Made by a program: the position numbers and the translations under genes. From assembly GCF_041022165.1 (NCBI RefSeq), contig NZ_CP163302.1, positions 496,001-560,000 of the forward strand: a stretch of DNA of 64,000 nt, written 5' to 3'. The notes under the pieces are model-generated. The model was given only the letters and a program-made list of their open reading frames with translations. It made no database searches and was not told the origin of the DNA. Below, in pieces: positions 36,846 through 48,294 of this stretch; position 1 is the first letter of the stretch, and every line of letters starts with the position of its first letter. The DNA is from Sinomonas sp. P10A9 (GTDB lineage: Bacteria; Actinomycetota; Actinomycetes; Actinomycetales; Micrococcaceae).

Positions 36846-37352
36846 TTAGGCGAGGGTCTGGCGCTTGCTGGAGATGACCCCCGTGTTGAAGCCGGCGAGG
36901 TGCAGGCCGCCGTGGAAGCGGGCGTGCTCGATCTTGACACAGCGGTCCATGACCACGTTCATCCCCGCCGCCTCGGCGTCGGACGCGACGCCCTCGTGCC
37001 ACGAGCCGAGCTGGAGCCAGATGGTCTTGGCGCCCGCGGCCTTGGCCTCGGCGAGGACGCCGGGCAGGTCGTCGTGCTTGCGGAACACCTCGACGAGGTC
37101 AGGCGTCTCGGGCAGGTCCGCGAGCGAGGCGTAGACGGGCTGGCCCAGAATCGTCTTCACGACGGGGTTGACGAAGTACACGCGGTACTTCGTCGAGGAC
37201 AGCAAGTACGTCGCGACGAAGTAGCTCGCCCTGCTCGGCTTGTCAGACGCGCCGACGATCGCGATGACCTTCGTATCGCGGAGGATCTTGAGGCGCTCGG
37301 GGGCGGTCGGCCCCACCCACGTGCGCTCGGTGCTTTCGACGGCGGCGCTCAC
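36846..37352 (-). CDS. CoA-binding domain protein
   Basis: A 168-residue Rossmann-fold CoA-binding protein (VIAIVGASDKPSRASYFVA, YFVNPVVKTILGQ, TIWLQLGSWHEG, VVMDRCVKIEH). Its GTG overlaps the metY stop by four bases, placing it third in the SAM-riboswitch-controlled sfnG-metY operon. Homologues often follow metY-like genes in actinobacteria as I recall; the biochemical role is unknown. It is a paralogue of the protein at 30880-31314. Confidence 0.86.
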   Translation of the reverse strand: MSAAVESTERTWVGPTAPERLKILRDTKVIAIVGASDKPSRASYFVATYLLSSTKYRVYFVNPVVKTILGQPVYASLADLPETPDLVEVFRKHDDLPGVLAEAKAAGAKTIWLQLGSWHEGVASDAEAAGMNVVMDRCVKIEHARFHGGLHLAGFNTGVISSKRQTLA

Positions 37353-38755
37353 TTGCCCTCCCCTTCCTGCTGGCGACCCGCTGCAGCGGTGACGGACGGG
37401 ATCACGCACGCCTCGCCGTCGTATGTCGGGGCCGCGAATTCCTGCTCCAGCTCGACAACCTCCTGAGACCGGTTTTGGCTTGCAGCAAGTGCCTGGTCGA
37501 GGTCCCAGATGATGTCCTCGACGTCCTCGAGGCCCACGGAGAGCCGGATGAGGTCCGCCGGGACGCCGGCCGCGACGAGCTGCTCTGCGGAGAGCTGCTG
37601 GTGCGTCGTCGAGCCGGGGTGGAGCACGAGGGTGCGCGCGTCGCCGATGTTGGCCAGGTGCGAGGCGATCTGCAGCGCCTCGATGAAGCGGGCCCCGGCC
37701 TCGCGGCCGCCCTTCACACCGAAGCTGAACACCGAGCCCACGCCGAGCGGCAGGAGCTTCTTGGCGTACTCGTACTGCGGGTGCGAGGGCAGGCCCGCGT
37801 AGTTCACATACGTGACGCGCGGATCGGCCTCGAGCCACTCGGCCACACGCTGGGCGTTGGCGAGATGCGCGTCCATGCGCTGCGGGAGCGTCTCGACGCC
37901 CTGGAGGAGCTGGAACGCGGACTGCGCGGGCAGGGACGGGCCAATGTCACGCAACTGCTCGGAGCGCAGCTTCGTGAGGAAGCCGTACTCGCCGAAGTTG
38001 CCCCACCACGAGACGTTGCCGTAGCTCGGCACCGGCTCGGTCATGGACGGGAACCTGCCGTTGCCCCAGTTGAACGTCCCAGACTCGACGACCACGCCGC
38101 CGAGCGTCGTCCCATGGCCGCCGAGGAACTTCGTGGCCGAGTGGATCACGATGTCCGCGCCGTGCTCGATGGGCCGCAGGATGTAGGGCGGGGTGAGCGT
38201 CGAGTCGACCACGAGAGGGACGCCGTGCTCGTGGGCGACGGCGGCGAGGCCGGCCAGGTCGGCGATGTCGCCGGAGGGGTTGGCCACCACCTCGGTGTAG
38301 ACGGCCTTGGTGTTCTCGCGCAGGGCGGTCTTGAACGCGGCCGGGTCGGTCGAGTCGACGAACGTGGTCTCGACGCCGAAGCGGCGAAGGGTCACATCGA
38401 GCTGCGTGATGGTGCCGCCGTAGAGCTTGGACGACGCGACGATGTGGTCCCCGGCCTGGGTGAGCGCGGCGAACGTGATGAACTCCGCGGCCATGCCCGA
38501 CGCCGTCGCGACCGCGCCGATGCCGCCCTCGAGAGACGCGATGCGCTCCTCGAACGCCGCGACCGTTGGGTTGCCGATGCGCGAGTAGATGTTGCCGTAC
38601 TTCTGCAGCGCGAAGAGGTTCGCGGCGTCGTCCGAGTCCTTGAACACGAACGAGGTGGTCTGGTAGATCGGGACGGCCCGCGCGCCGTGTTCGGCGTCGG
38701 GCGTGCCGCCGGCGTGCAGGGCGCGGGTGCGGAACCCGAACTGGCGCTCCGCCAT
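37349..38755 (-). CDS. metY: O-acetylhomoserine/O-acetylserine sulfhydrylase
   Basis: A 468-residue PLP enzyme of the Cys/Met metabolism family. It condenses O-acetylhomoserine with sulfide to homocysteine and releases acetate. Family features: the N-terminal FRTRALHAGG, GTITQ with the PLP-contact Asp in VDSTLTPP, and the PLP lysine in IHSATKFLGGHGTTLGG. About 30 C-terminal residues extend past the usual end. The ATG overlaps the sfnG stop by one base, so synthesis is coupled. Expression should follow the SAM-I riboswitch at 39996-40089. Confidence 0.94.
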   Translation of the reverse strand: MAERQFGFRTRALHAGGTPDAEHGARAVPIYQTTSFVFKDSDDAANLFALQKYGNIYSRIGNPTVAAFEERIASLEGGIGAVATASGMAAEFITFAALTQAGDHIVASSKLYGGTITQLDVTLRRFGVETTFVDSTDPAAFKTALRENTKAVYTEVVANPSGDIADLAGLAAVAHEHGVPLVVDSTLTPPYILRPIEHGADIVIHSATKFLGGHGTTLGGVVVESGTFNWGNGRFPSMTEPVPSYGNVSWWGNFGEYGFLTKLRSEQLRDIGPSLPAQSAFQLLQGVETLPQRMDAHLANAQRVAEWLEADPRVTYVNYAGLPSHPQYEYAKKLLPLGVGSVFSFGVKGGREAGARFIEALQIASHLANIGDARTLVLHPGSTTHQQLSAEQLVAAGVPADLIRLSVGLEDVEDIIWDLDQALAASQNRSQEVVELEQEFAAPTYDGEACVIPSVTAAAGRQQEGEGK

Positions 38756-39945
38756 CAGGCGTTCGCCCCGGCGAGGCCCGCGGCAGAACCAGTGACTGGC
38801 AGCAGGTCCGTGCGAAGCTCGGTGCCGTTCTTGCGGGCGAGGTCCGCCTCGAGCTCGCGCACGATCGGGAGCACGTCGCGGCCGAACGCCTCGAGCTCCT
38901 CCTGGAAGTGCAGGTAGCCCGTGAGGAACAGGTTCACGCCGATCTTCTTGTACTCGACGACGCGCTCGGCGATCTGCTCGGGAGTGCCGATGAGCTTGGT
39001 GCGGAAGCCGTCGTTGTACTGGACGAGGTCCTCGAACGTCGAGTCCTCCCACATGCCCTTGCCGTCCTTCGTGGACTGGCCGGCCTCCTTCACAGCGGCG
39101 GCGAAGCCCTCGACGGCGGGCTTGTGGGCCTTGGCGATGATCTCGCGCAGGGTGTCCTGCGCCTCCTTCTCCGTTTCGCGCGCGATGACGAAGCCGTTGA
39201 GGCCGAAGCGGGGGGCTGCGGGGGCCGTGCGGCCCTGGCCGGCGGCGGCCAGGACACCGCGGATGTTGTCCTTGAACGGCTCGAGGTCGCGGCCGTTGGA
39301 GAAGTACCAGTCCGCGGTGCGGCCCGCGGCGGCCTGTGCTGCCGTCGAGTTGCCTCCGAAGAAGATCTCCGGGTGCGCGCGGCCCGGGATGTCCAGGGGG
39401 GCGGGGTTGAGGGTGAAGTCCGTGATGTTGTAGTACTTGCCGGACTGCGAGTAGTCCTTCTGGGTCCACAGGCCGCGGAGGGCGTTGATGAACTCCTCGG
39501 TGCGGACGTAGCGCTCGTCGTGCTCGAGCCACTCCAGGCCGAAGTTCACGAACTCGTCCTTGAGCCAGCCGGAGACGATGTTCACGGCCGCACGGCCGCC
39601 GGAGAGGTGGTCTGCGGTGATGATGAACTTCGCGAGGACGCCCGGGTGCCACATGCCCGGGTGCACGGCCGAGATGACCTTGAGCCGCTCGGTTGCCATG
39701 AGGAGGGCGAGGCTGAAGGAGGTGGCCTCGTGCTGCTTGTCCGCGCCGTAGCTCGCGGCGTACCGGGTCTGGGTCAGTGCGTACTCGAAGCCGGAGTTCT
39801 CCGCGATGCGGGCGAGCTTCTTGTTGTACTCGAACTCCCAGTTGGTGCGCTGCTCGATCGTCGAGACGACAAGCCCGCCGGAGACGTTGGGGACCCAGTA
39901 GGCGAACTTGAGCGGGGTCTCGAGGTCAATCACGTGATCGGTCAT
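38755..39945 (-). CDS. sfnG: Dimethylsulfone monooxygenase (FMNH2-dependent, SfnG-type)
   Basis: A 396-residue luciferase-like monooxygenase. The N-terminus (KFAYWVPNVSGGLVVSTIEQ) and the motifs ENSGFEYALTQTRYAA, DHLSGGRAAVNIVSGW and EWLEHDERY match SfnG, which converts dimethylsulfone to methanesulfinate and formaldehyde with FMNH2 and O2. It needs an external flavin reductase; one is encoded at 47812 under a SAM-IV type riboswitch. The ATG follows AAGGAG by seven bases. An alkanesulfonate or other C1-sulfur substrate is the alternative. Confidence 0.88.
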   Translation of the reverse strand: MTDHVIDLETPLKFAYWVPNVSGGLVVSTIEQRTNWEFEYNKKLARIAENSGFEYALTQTRYAASYGADKQHEATSFSLALLMATERLKVISAVHPGMWHPGVLAKFIITADHLSGGRAAVNIVSGWLKDEFVNFGLEWLEHDERYVRTEEFINALRGLWTQKDYSQSGKYYNITDFTLNPAPLDIPGRAHPEIFFGGNSTAAQAAAGRTADWYFSNGRDLEPFKDNIRGVLAAAGQGRTAPAAPRFGLNGFVIARETEKEAQDTLREIIAKAHKPAVEGFAAAVKEAGQSTKDGKGMWEDSTFEDLVQYNDGFRTKLIGTPEQIAERVVEYKKIGVNLFLTGYLHFQEELEAFGRDVLPIVRELEADLARKNGTELRTDLLPVTGSAAGLAGANA

Positions 39946-39982: not shown

Positions 39983-39995
39983 TTGCTGACACTCG

Positions 39996-40089
39996 CCATC
40001 GCTTCTGGCAGTAGCACCCTGTGGCTCCCAAAGCGGAGCCAGGGTTGCTGCGGCGTCACAGATCCAGATCTCTCGGCCGCTCGGGATGG
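39996..40089 (-). promoter_or_regulatory. SAM-I riboswitch (S-box) of the sfnG-metY operon
   Basis: Read on the minus strand, P1 pairs CCATC (40085-40089) with GATGG (39996-40000). Between them are the S-box landmarks: GCGGCCGAGAGATCTGGATC (P2 and kink-turn), GTGACGCCGCAGCAACC, the P3 hairpin CTGGCTCC/GGAGCCACAG, and GGTGCTACTGCC. SAM binding should turn off the sulfur-scavenging and methionine genes downstream. Confidence 0.88.
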
Positions 40090-40097
40090 TCCTTCTG

Positions 40098-45345: not shown

Positions 45346-47331
45346 CTACCGGGCCGCGAGGACCTTCTCGATCTCCTCGATGCACGGCTCGTTCTGAAGG
45401 CTCGTCGTGTCGCCGAGCACGGTGCCCTCGAAGAGCTGCGTGAGCAGGCGCCGCATGATCTTGCCTGAGCGCGTCTTGGGCACGTCCGGGACCGCCACGA
45501 CGTCGCGCGGCTTCGCGATCGGGCCGATCTCCTTCGTGATGTGGGCGCGGAGGGCCTCGGCGAGGCTCGACGGGCCGTCGGGGAGCGCCGCTACGGCGTC
45601 CGGATTCACGACGACGAACGCCGCCACCGCGTGCCCGGTCTTCGCATCAGAGACCGGGCAGACGCCAGCCTCGACCACGGCCGGGTGCGAGACGAGAGCG
45701 GACTCGATCTCGATTGTCGAGAGCCGGTGCCCGGAGACGTTGAGCACGTCGTCGACGCGCCCGAGGATCCAGGTGTCGCCGTCGGAATCGAACTTCGCGC
45801 CGTCGCCGGCGAGGAACCAGCCCTGCTCCGCGTACTTGCGCCAGTACGAGTCCAGGTACCGCTGCGGGTTGCCCCACACGGTGCGCGCCATGGCGGGCCC
45901 GGTCTCGGTGACCACGATGTAGCCCTGCACGCCCGGCGGCACCGGAGCGCCGTCGTCGTCCACGATCGCGGTGGCGAGACCGGGCAGCGCCCTCGTGGCA
46001 CACCCGGGCTTGAACGCGGCGTCGGTCTGCCGCGGGGAGAGCACCGTCGCGCCGGTCTCGGACTGCCACCACGTGTCCACCATCGGGACGTGGTGCGGGC
46101 CCACGGCGGCGTCGCGCCCGATGTTGGCCCGCAGCCATCGCCATGCCTCCGGGTTCACGGCCTCGCCCACGGTCCCGAGGACCCGGATCGAGCTGAAGTT
46201 GTACTCGGCCGGGACGCCGTCGGGGAACCAGCCCATGAGCGAGCGCACCAGCGTTGGCGCGGTGTAGTAGCTCGTGACGCCGTAGCGCTGGATGATCTCG
46301 AAGTGCCGGCCCGGGTGCGGCGTGTTGGGCGTGCCCTCGAAGATCACCTGCGTGACGCCGTTGGAGAGCGGCCCGTAGATCTCGTACGTGTGCGCCGTGA
46401 CCCACGCGAGGTCGGCTGTGCACCAGTGCACGTCCCTGTCGCGCAGCGCCGGGTCGGGGTTCGAGAACAGATACTCGTGGCTCCAGGACGACTGGGTCAG
46501 GTAGCCGCCGGTCGTGTGCACGAGGCCCTTGGGCTTCCCGGTGGTCCCGGAGGTGTACATGATGAACAGCGGCGTCTCGGCGTCGAACGCCTCGGCCTCG
46601 TGCACGTCGGGCTGCGCGTCGACGAGCTCGTGCCACCACACGTCGCGGCCCGGCGTCCACTCGATGTCGGACCCCGTCCGCCTGATCACGAGGACATGTT
46701 CGACGGCGTTGTCCCCGGCTTCCGCTCCGCCGCGCACCGCGGCGTCGGCGTTCTCCTTGACGGGGACGGCCTTGCCACGGCGGTACTGTCCGTCCGTGGT
46801 GACGAGCAGCTTGGCTCCCGTGTCCTCGACCCGGAATCGCAGGGCCTCGGCGGAGAACCCGCCGAACACGAGCGAGTGCACCGCGCCGATTCGGGCGCAC
46901 GCGAGCGTGATGACCACGGTCTCGACGAGCACGGGCAGGTAGACGACCACACGGTCGCCCTTGCCGACCCCGAGCGCGAGCAGCGCGTTTGCCGCCTGGG
47001 AGACGCGCCGCTGGAGGTCCGCGTACGTGACGGTGAGGCGGTCGCCCGGCTCACCCTCGAAGTGCAGCGCAACTTTGTCTCCGCGCCCCGCGGCCACGTG
47101 CCGGTCCGCGCAGTTCACCGCCGCATTGAGGCGGCCGCCCTCGAACCAGCGGATCACCGGGGGCTCGTTGGCCTCGGGGTCGGCCGGGATCCAGGTGTGG
47201 ACGGTGTCCCACTCGCGCTCCCACGCGAGGCGCCGCGCGGCGTCCTCCCAGAACGCGATCCGCTTGGGGTCGGTCTGGGCAGAACCGCTCTGGTCGGAAT
47301 TGGGGGCGGGGGCAGGGGTTACTGCGGACAT
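45346..47331 (-). CDS. acs: Acetyl-CoA synthetase (acetate-CoA ligase)
   Basis: A 661-residue ANL enzyme that makes acetyl-CoA from acetate, ATP and CoA. MYTSGTTGKPKGLVHTTGGY is the P-loop, WWQSETGATVLSP the adenylate motif, GRVDDVLNVSGHRLSTIEIE the hinge, and KTRSGKIMRRLL holds the acylatable lysine. Length is typical. The ATG lies six bases after GGAG, which is itself part of the P1 stem of a SAM-I riboswitch, an unusual controller for acs. The gene is divergent from the flavin reductase gene. Confidence 0.94.
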   Translation of the reverse strand: MSAVTPAPAPNSDQSGSAQTDPKRIAFWEDAARRLAWEREWDTVHTWIPADPEANEPPVIRWFEGGRLNAAVNCADRHVAAGRGDKVALHFEGEPGDRLTVTYADLQRRVSQAANALLALGVGKGDRVVVYLPVLVETVVITLACARIGAVHSLVFGGFSAEALRFRVEDTGAKLLVTTDGQYRRGKAVPVKENADAAVRGGAEAGDNAVEHVLVIRRTGSDIEWTPGRDVWWHELVDAQPDVHEAEAFDAETPLFIMYTSGTTGKPKGLVHTTGGYLTQSSWSHEYLFSNPDPALRDRDVHWCTADLAWVTAHTYEIYGPLSNGVTQVIFEGTPNTPHPGRHFEIIQRYGVTSYYTAPTLVRSLMGWFPDGVPAEYNFSSIRVLGTVGEAVNPEAWRWLRANIGRDAAVGPHHVPMVDTWWQSETGATVLSPRQTDAAFKPGCATRALPGLATAIVDDDGAPVPPGVQGYIVVTETGPAMARTVWGNPQRYLDSYWRKYAEQGWFLAGDGAKFDSDGDTWILGRVDDVLNVSGHRLSTIEIESALVSHPAVVEAGVCPVSDAKTGHAVAAFVVVNPDAVAALPDGPSSLAEALRAHITKEIGPIAKPRDVVAVPDVPKTRSGKIMRRLLTQLFEGTVLGDTTSLQNEPCIEEIEKVLAAR

Positions 47332-47337
47332 TCACAT

Positions 47338-47430
47338 CTCCATCGGTTCTGGCGGTAGCACCAGTGGCACGTGGTGGCCAGGGTTGCTGCGGCGTCACGG
47401 AGCCAGATCTCTCGGCCGCTCGGGATGGGT
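47338..47430 (-). promoter_or_regulatory. SAM-I riboswitch fused to the acs ribosome-binding site
   Basis: On the minus strand P1 pairs CCATC (47424-47428) with GATGG (47340-47344). The landmarks between are AGCGGCCGAGAGATCTGGCT, CGTGACGCCGCAGCAACC, a P3 hairpin CTGGCCAC/GTGCCACTGG region and GGTGCTACCGCC. The Shine-Dalgarno GGAG (47338-47341) begins inside the P1 3' strand, so SAM binding should hide it directly. Confidence 0.88.
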
Positions 47431-47531
47431 TTGCTTCAACTTTCACGCAATTCGCGGTCTGGGCGCAAAACCGGCGGTGCGCGGCCGTAATAATCGCGGC
47501 GTGCGCAGGCGGCGTGTGCAAGGGCGGTGAG

Positions 47532-47563
47532 GCACGACGGCGGGTGCCCACCCGCCGTCGTGC
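47532..47563. repeat. GCACGACGGCGGGT hairpin
   Basis: A perfect 14-bp inverted repeat (47532-47545 with 47550-47563) with loop GCCC, in the 480-bp gap between the divergent acs and flavin reductase genes. It shares its arm with 27082-27094 and 41871-41882. Apart from this and the two riboswitches, the gap (47332-47811) shows nothing I can name. Confidence 0.75.
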
Positions 47564-47657
47564 GTCAGCGGCGCGGGGGCTCTCAGAATGCCCACAATGT
47601 GTCTCATTGTTGCCGCGTCATTGGACGACCCCGAATCCAGATCCGTAGGGTGGAAGG

Positions 47658-47763
47658 CAGGATCAAGAGTCCCGGCGTTAAGCTCTGGCTGGCCGGGCGG
47701 CAACCCTCTCCCGTAGTGGGGTGCCCCAGATGAGGATCCGGCCGCGGTGTCCATCCGCGGCAA
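47658..47763 (+). promoter_or_regulatory. SAM-IV type riboswitch before the flavin reductase gene
   Basis: P1 pairs GGATC (47660-47664) with GATCC (47735-47739). Inside are CGTTAAGCTCTGGCTGGCC, GGCGGCAACCCTC, and CGTAGTGGGGTGCCCCAGAT, in the SAM-IV order. A downstream hairpin CCGCGG/CCGCGG (47742-47760) fits the extra 3' stem of this class. Exact class (SAM-IV or SAM-I/IV) needs covariance scoring. Confidence 0.75.
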
Positions 47764-47811
47764 GTACGGCGCCTGATGCACCGGGCGTCCTTCCGATGCT
47801 GGAGCAACCTC

Positions 47812-48294
47812 ATGACCGCGATGCCGCTCGACCTTGTGACCGGTGCTGACCTGCGCCGCGCCATGGGGCGCTGGGCGACGGGCATCTCGGTCATGACCAC
47901 CTCGGACGGCGGCACGGTTGCGGGCCTCGTGAGCAACTCGTTCACCTCGGTCAGCCTCGACCCGCCGCTCGTCTCCTGGGCGGTGGACAAGAAGTCGAGC
48001 TCATTCGAGATCTGGAACCGCACCGACAACTACGCCGTGCACATCCTGTCCGAGTCCCACCAGGACTTGGTCAAGAGGTTCGCGGCGAAGGGAACGGACA
48101 AGTTCGCGGGACTGGCCTGGGAGCCCGGGACCCTGGGCTCTCCCATCGTGGCCGACGACGTCCCGCACCTCGAGTGTCGCCTCTGGCAGCGGGTGGACGC
48201 AGGGGACCACGTCATCCTGATCGGCGAGGTAGTCACCGTCTCGGATCAGGACGACTTCCGCCCCCTCACGAACCACGTGTACTGGGCAAAGTAG
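47812..48294 (+). CDS. Flavin reductase (FMN-binding split-barrel)
   Basis: A 160-residue NAD(P)H:flavin oxidoreductase of the HpaC/SsuE-like split-barrel family: LRRAMGRWATGISVMTTSDGG at the N-terminus, LVSNSFTSVSLDPPLVSW for flavin binding, and GDHVILIGEVV near the end. The ATG at 47812 follows GGAG (47801-47804) by seven bases; a longer frame starts inside the leader. A SAM-IV type riboswitch precedes it. It likely delivers reduced FMN to SfnG, whose operon is also SAM-repressed. Confidence 0.88.
   Translation: MTAMPLDLVTGADLRRAMGRWATGISVMTTSDGGTVAGLVSNSFTSVSLDPPLVSWAVDKKSSSFEIWNRTDNYAVHILSESHQDLVKRFAAKGTDKFAGLAWEPGTLGSPIVADDVPHLECRLWQRVDAGDHVILIGEVVTVSDQDDFRPLTNHVYWAK

Follow-up and report, generated by a model that had tools for sequence, protein, structure and literature searches.

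The stretch of DNA analysed here, referred to as the window, comprises 64,000 nucleotides of Sinomonas sp. P10A9, whose genome is a single contig of 4.29 Mb. Its minus strand carries acs (45346..47331), which encodes an acetate--CoA ligase of 661 aa, the second copy of this enzyme in the genome, and directly before it a SAM-I (S-box) aptamer (47337..47431, minus strand). Three riboswitches are found in the window with Rfam models, two SAM-I and one SAM-IV; no SAM-I was found elsewhere in the genome, and SAM-IV was found five times in it. The SAM-IV riboswitch of the window (47661..47772, plus strand; RF00634, 95 bits, gathering threshold 38) diverges from acs and is followed by a flavin reductase gene (47776..48294, plus strand; PF01613, 131.8 bits), the start codon of which may be further down. 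SAM-I and SAM-IV are thus arranged back to back, 229 bases apart (47432-47660). SAM-IV was present in all nine Sinomonas loci scanned, which represent at most eight genomes (L101 and L116 are apparently one contig); SAM-I stands beside it on the opposite strand in seven of the nine and falls just under the cut-off in an eighth (L098).

The second SAM-I (39993..40092, minus strand; RF00162, 45.1 bits) lies before sfnG (38755..39945, minus strand), a dimethylsulfone monooxygenase gene (TIGR04021, 603.2 bits, cut-off 382.95), and metY (37349..38755, minus strand), a member of the O-acetylhomoserine sulfhydrylase family (TIGR01326, 590.8 bits, cut-off 495.1) whose ATG shares one base with the stop codon of sfnG. 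A gene for a small CoA-binding protein (36846..37352, minus strand, start inferred; PF13380, 136.1 bits) comes after metY, as it does in many relatives, including other families, and an aldehyde dehydrogenase gene also belongs to the sfnG-metY cluster. The preliminary description of the window had placed MetY under this second S-box; the S-box is indeed upstream, but sfnG is the first gene and metY the second, and a simple metY switch was therefore rejected. At the sfnG S-box, the distance from P1 to the likely start codon of sfnG is about 50 bases; this ATG comes with an AAGGAG of its own that is not part of P1, and an ATG within the P1 strand GATGG opens a frame running into sfnG.

The acs leader and its ribosome-binding site

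Scoring the acs leader with the RF00162 covariance model, proposed in the preliminary description as a check on its SAM-I assignment, gave 51.8 bits against a gathering threshold of 44.4 (E 5e-9 in the window scan) for a match at 47431-47337 on the minus strand that covers model positions 1-108, and the boundaries originally proposed (47338..47430) prove correct to one base. A second covariance model, R1, scored the leader at 94 bits (E 3.6e-21 over 1.11 Mb). This model was trained on 53 of 97 S-boxes, none with acs within 1 kb, after exclusion of 20 S-boxes near acs and of non-acs ones below 49 bits or outside 84-102 nt, although the training set may contain S-boxes whose operon ends in acs. 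Assignment to the SAM-I/IV class was rejected, as RF01725 had no match anywhere in the genome at E 1. Folding energy was likewise dropped as evidence for the aptamer, since the leader has a z-score of -0.42 and 55 of 200 shuffled sequences were at least as stable.

Both surveys described below together yielded 50 acs leaders (46 distinct sequences), 27 of which were aligned, with most long, duplicate and decayed ones omitted. The alignment contains 23 pairs with 99.7% of cells paired, the P1-P2-P3 junction, and a pseudoknot with 98.5% of its cells paired. Three pairs are changed on both sides, compared with 0.2 in shuffles; with so little variation in P1 and P3 there is not much covariation to go by, and the assignment rests mainly on homology. 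In the window, the pseudoknot is intact between CTGGC in L2 (47402..47406) and GCCAG in J3/4 (47349..47353), and the core letters GCAACC (47382..47387) and GGTGC (47362-47358), all on the minus strand, are invariant in the alignments of 53 and of 27 S-boxes. These core letters are known to contact SAM in SAM-I riboswitches; the aptamer before acs is predicted to bind it. The leader had been called a complete S-box, which is true of the core only, as the P4 helix is absent and the space for it too small. The gap between GGTGC and P1 measures 12-14 nt in 111 of the 117 S-boxes of the genome survey, the other six not being measurable by the pattern used. The SAM-I aptamers of these relatives (the 117 S-boxes, L037-L115 included) can be regarded as a P4-less subtype, with no room for this helix in 111 of them.

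The P1 helix is formed by CCATC (47428-47424) and GATGG (47344-47340), and the last two G of the latter are the first two of the Shine-Dalgarno sequence GGAG (47341-47338), six bases before the acs start codon (ATG, 47331-47329; all minus strand); the letters agree here with what had been described. Counted over all 50 leaders, 42 of the 46 distinct sequences keep all five P1 pairs, with P1 leading directly into GGA or GGG, the four with a decayed P1 being G034, L121, L141 and L168. More generally, by simple rules based on predicted starts, 90 of the 117 S-boxes have a P1 that passes into GGRG or a purine run, and 74 of the 117 have the start codon of an ORF of at least 100 aa within 20 nt of P1. 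Neither terminator-like nor promoter-like sites were found when looked for at the acs leader. In the Glutamicibacter-like loci L138, L140 and L147, the ribosome site at P1 precedes a 26-codon ORF, perhaps a leader peptide, and acs follows later. Since P1 includes half of GGAG, translation of acs would be blocked when P1 is closed. The overlap, its conservation and the lack of a terminator-like site agree with the original proposal that the ribosome site is hidden with no separate expression platform, and the closing of P1 by SAM would make this leader an instance of the direct type of control already described, in which the ribosome site lies in P1.

Distribution of S-boxes upstream of acs

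A survey of S-box-acs pairs, also suggested in the preliminary description, was carried out on 58 genomes including the source genome, with stricter filters and mostly within one family. It returned 117 SAM-I matches in 39 of the 58 genomes, and 20 of these 39, mostly Micrococcaceae, have an acs match whose start is no more than 1 kb downstream of an S-box; the distance is measured to the start of the tblastn match, and those in G024 (731) and G041 (771) leave room for a short gene. For a further eight S-boxes acs lies 2.9-4.3 kb downstream. The first genes after S-boxes encode flavin-dependent monooxygenases (20), Acs (19), SsuB-like ATPases (18), MetY (17), SfnB-like proteins (12), MetF (8) and fewer of others, according to a crude ORF rule with partly interpretive names, under which the sfnG S-box of the source genome is filed under MetY.

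Seen from the side of the enzyme, the best 80 of 579 acs relatives in the genome collection were divided by distance. An S-box stands at most about 740 nt upstream of the acs match in 30 of these 80 loci and 2.3-3.1 kb upstream in 14, of which 13 have an SsuC-type permease gene directly before acs; the remaining 36 have none by this distance rule. The 30 near loci include four of Nesterenkonia (L148-L151) in which a small gene separates S-box and acs (a flavin reductase in L148-L150), the three Glutamicibacter-like loci, where only tiny ORFs intervene, and the three weak matches L121, L141 and L168. Eight of the 36 loci bear Micrococcaceae names; of these eight, L142, L160 and L190 are on contigs that break off within the transporter genes upstream of acs, while L129 and L146 have an S-box further upstream, before transporter genes. 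The idea that S-box-free relatives use SAM-IV instead was discarded, as tRNAs alone were matched in the ten of the 36 loci that were scanned. In a tree of Acs, drawn without L227 and L228 (minus-strand loci that were misread, which also makes the L227 row of the paralog counts invalid), a clade of 53 tips consisting of Micrococcaceae and one Brevibacterium holds 31 near (window included), 13 far and 9 without an S-box, so that 44 have one.

The nearest acs relatives among named genomes are from Sinomonas, with 90% identity. Six of the ten Sinomonas with this Acs have the S-box directly before it and one (G003) only before the preceding transporter genes; in the other three (G005, G009, G010) no S-box was found there and acs has a plain ribosome site, which indicates that SAM control is not essential everywhere. 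Sinomonas relatives whose acs lacks an S-box (L208, L209 and L210, as well as L118), with an ordinary ribosome site, offer a natural unregulated control. Among 60 genomes sampled evenly across the phylum, Acs was matched at E 1e-240 in the source genome and one other of the same family only, a strict limit at which more distant members would be missed. Five plasmid records, from Rhodococcus and Nocardia, gave short matches of 60-80% identity.

Acs, MetY and the proposed recycling of acetate

The Acs of the window scores 766.6 bits with TIGR02188 (cut-off 724.95) and 562.2 bits with the solved acetyl-CoA synthetase 2p20. The residues that we take to form the acetate pocket are kept in all 81 aligned Acs; they are kept in six validly read other copies too and hence do not single out this enzyme. 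Acetate is the predicted substrate. The other Acs of the genome is 56% identical and has no S-box, and acetate kinase (AckA) is also present, so acetate can be activated by other routes, a point that counts against the recycling reading given below. Among 27 related genomes, which were picked partly for their S-boxes, the type of Acs studied here (at least 63% identity) occurs in 23, and 22 of these, all but G028, have a further copy of lower similarity at E 1e-150.

MetY is the constant partner of this enzyme. Within the best 80 of 579 relatives, acs is followed by metY at no more than 1.5 kb in 27 loci and at no more than 60 nt in 11, and 40 have metY somewhere in the retrieved flank; metY also follows acs in loci of Brevibacterium, Cellulomonas, Actinotalea and Brachybacterium that have no S-box. 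Every one of the 23 genomes that carry this Acs also has a matching MetY (at least 75%), the match in G033 holding a stop, and three of the four genomes without the Acs also lack the MetY; given the selection partly for S-boxes, these co-occurrence counts are not a fair sample. Ten of 14 Sinomonas have both proteins, three have neither and one (G006) has MetY alone. An SsuA-type protein, found at E 1e-60, occurs in eight of the 27 genomes, all among the 23 with this Acs and the source genome not among them, and the SsuA transporter was on these counts rejected as the main partner, a comparison that favours a link to MetY. A second MetY (MetY2) stands behind a SAM-IV riboswitch, and after it comes a match to MetX. 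The matched part of MetX is above the cut-off of the PRK00175 acetyltransferase model (447.3, cut-off 331), just below that of the MTB-type acetyl model (462.2, cut-off 475), below that of TIGR01392 (421.7, cut-off 500) and far below that of the succinyl model (337.3, cut-off 560).

MetY is known to release acetate from O-acetylhomoserine. Given these findings, we consider it probable (roughly 70%) that the SAM-I riboswitch hides the ribosome site of acs and that Acs recycles the acetate released by MetY when SAM is low, a reading drawn from the DNA and protein sequences. At high SAM, ligand binding would keep P1 (CCATC/GATGG) closed and half of GGAG covered, blocking acs translation. At low SAM, P1 would open and Acs would be produced alongside the products of the other SAM-switched genes, namely SfnG, MetY, the flavin reductase and the MetY2-MetX pair. 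MetX would then form O-acetylhomoserine from homoserine and acetyl-CoA, MetY would replace the acetyl group with sulfur and release acetate, and Acs would return this acetate to acetyl-CoA. The recycling link, already put forward in the preliminary description, gains from the position of metY after acs, from the MetX score above one acetyltransferase cut-off, and from the fact that among the 27 genomes this type of Acs was never found without that type of MetY. The gene thrA is a homoserine gene. Its place in a SAM-switched acsA operon of Bacillus methanolicus (PMC4342826) is counted in favour of recycling.

The most serious competitor, though an unlikely one, accepts the riboswitch as proposed and has Acs serve the carbon left from scavenged organosulfur, for example after desulfonation, rather than acetate from MetY. 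In 29 of the best 80 of 579 relatives, acs has an SsuC-type permease gene no more than 400 nt upstream, a binding protein near acs in relatives is above the SsuA-family cut-off, genes for sulfone and other flavin-dependent monooxygenases and SfnB-like genes occur beside S-boxes (names partly interpretive), and the aldehyde dehydrogenase within the sfnG-metY cluster would also fit. Of the 23 genomes that carry this Acs, nevertheless, eight have the SsuA-type protein, the source genome not being one of them, compared with MetY in all 23, and there are 13 loci where metY is adjacent to acs and no permease gene lies within 400 nt. The chemistry of SfnG, moreover, yields C1 products rather than acetate. 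What keeps this alternative alive is the sulfonate-type transporter beside acs in many relatives together with a published operon, filed under sulfonate uptake, in which the SAM-switched acsA1 of B. methanolicus comes after ssuACB (PMC4342826).

Two further alternatives concern the switch itself. Just two of the four GGAG bases are paired and P1 is short, so a real riboswitch might control acs by way of mRNA stability or Rho instead of hiding the ribosome site. Such side effects are common among translational riboswitches. Nonetheless, we regard this as improbable, because a terminator-like site is absent, five bases separate the aptamer match from the ATG, P1 leads into GGRG or a purine run in most S-boxes (90 of 117), and direct translation control has been described for SAM-I in Actinobacteria (PMC2258182). 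Least credible of all is that the S-box before acs is a relic with no effect. Decayed S-boxes do stand before some acs genes (L121, L141 and L168, with 24.5, 33.7 and 51.7 bits by R1, and G034) and three Sinomonas have none there, but the aptamer of the window retains core, pseudoknot and P1, the last of which is retained in 42 of 46 distinct leaders, and G034, L121 and L168, with their decayed P1, have an intact S-box further upstream.

Hiding of the ribosome site combined with recycling of MetY acetate is therefore the reading that we prefer. If correct, it would extend the S-box regulon in many Micrococcaceae from methionine synthesis and import to the recycling of a by-product of synthesis, offer a reason for the second acetyl-CoA synthetase of this family, and predict a specific role, MetY-coupled acetate recovery, for a gene that annotation would file under general carbon metabolism. 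A broader and more tentative proposal, to which we give somewhat less than even odds, is that Micrococcaceae possess a by-product loop under SAM feedback, with a dedicated SAM-I-switched Acs for the acetate of one MetY, such that organosulfur scavenging, homocysteine or methionine synthesis and acetate recovery form one module controlled by SAM. That MetY, whose gene is found together with those of sulfone and other flavin-dependent monooxygenases, may take methanethiol as well as sulfide and so make methionine in one step, and the ssu-acsA-thrA operon of B. methanolicus would be a second case.

Comparison with known systems

SAM-I P1 stems that contain the ribosome site are known, and direct control of this kind is most frequent in Actinobacteria (Barrick and Breaker 2007, PMC2258182). 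The acs leader shares with that SAM-I the core, P1-P3 and the pseudoknot, would like it control translation directly without an additional expression platform, and differs from it in the missing P4, which nearly all measured relatives lack too, and in the target gene. SAM-IV also has no P4 (PMC6890682). The SAM-IV of the window (RF00634) resembles the acs leader in belonging to a SAM-sensing class, in lacking P4 and in its place within the intergenic region that both occupy, on opposite strands, but SAM-IV has a second pseudoknot and P5, whereas the acs leader scores as SAM-I. The SAM-I of the Xanthomonas met operon acts mainly on translation, as predicted for the acs leader, yet it uses a separate sequestering hairpin, for which the acs leader has no room, and senses tRNA (PMC7270179). 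As to the enzyme, this Acs is above the cut-off of the AcsA acetate--CoA ligase family (TIGR02188), but it is a second copy tied to metY by position and co-occurrence.

The closest published arrangement is the operon (SAM)-(PyrR)-BMMGA3_03030-ssuA1-ssuC1-ssuB1-acsA1-thrA, listed in a transcriptome table of B. methanolicus (PMC4342826). It has in common with the present locus a SAM-switched acsA, and its transporter is of the same kind as that before acs in many Micrococcaceae. There, however, acsA1 is internal to a long Firmicute operon, is filed as sulfonate uptake and has a PyrR site too (PMC4342826), and the likeness to this Acs is one of gene name and operon. The preliminary description called acs an unusual gene to find under an S-box, a fair remark against which this one precedent has to be set. 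In the accessible text of PMC2700814 no acs under a SAM riboswitch was found. Neither an acs under an S-box in Actinobacteria nor a tie to MetY was found in the literature searched, as far as its texts were available and with regulon databases, supplements and most subscription journals outside the search. The riboswitch class, its mode of action and one acsA under a SAM riboswitch are thus already known, while the spread of S-box-acs pairs, mostly in Micrococcaceae, is new as far as the literature was searched. Compared with these systems, the switch itself is ordinary and the gene that it controls is unusual.
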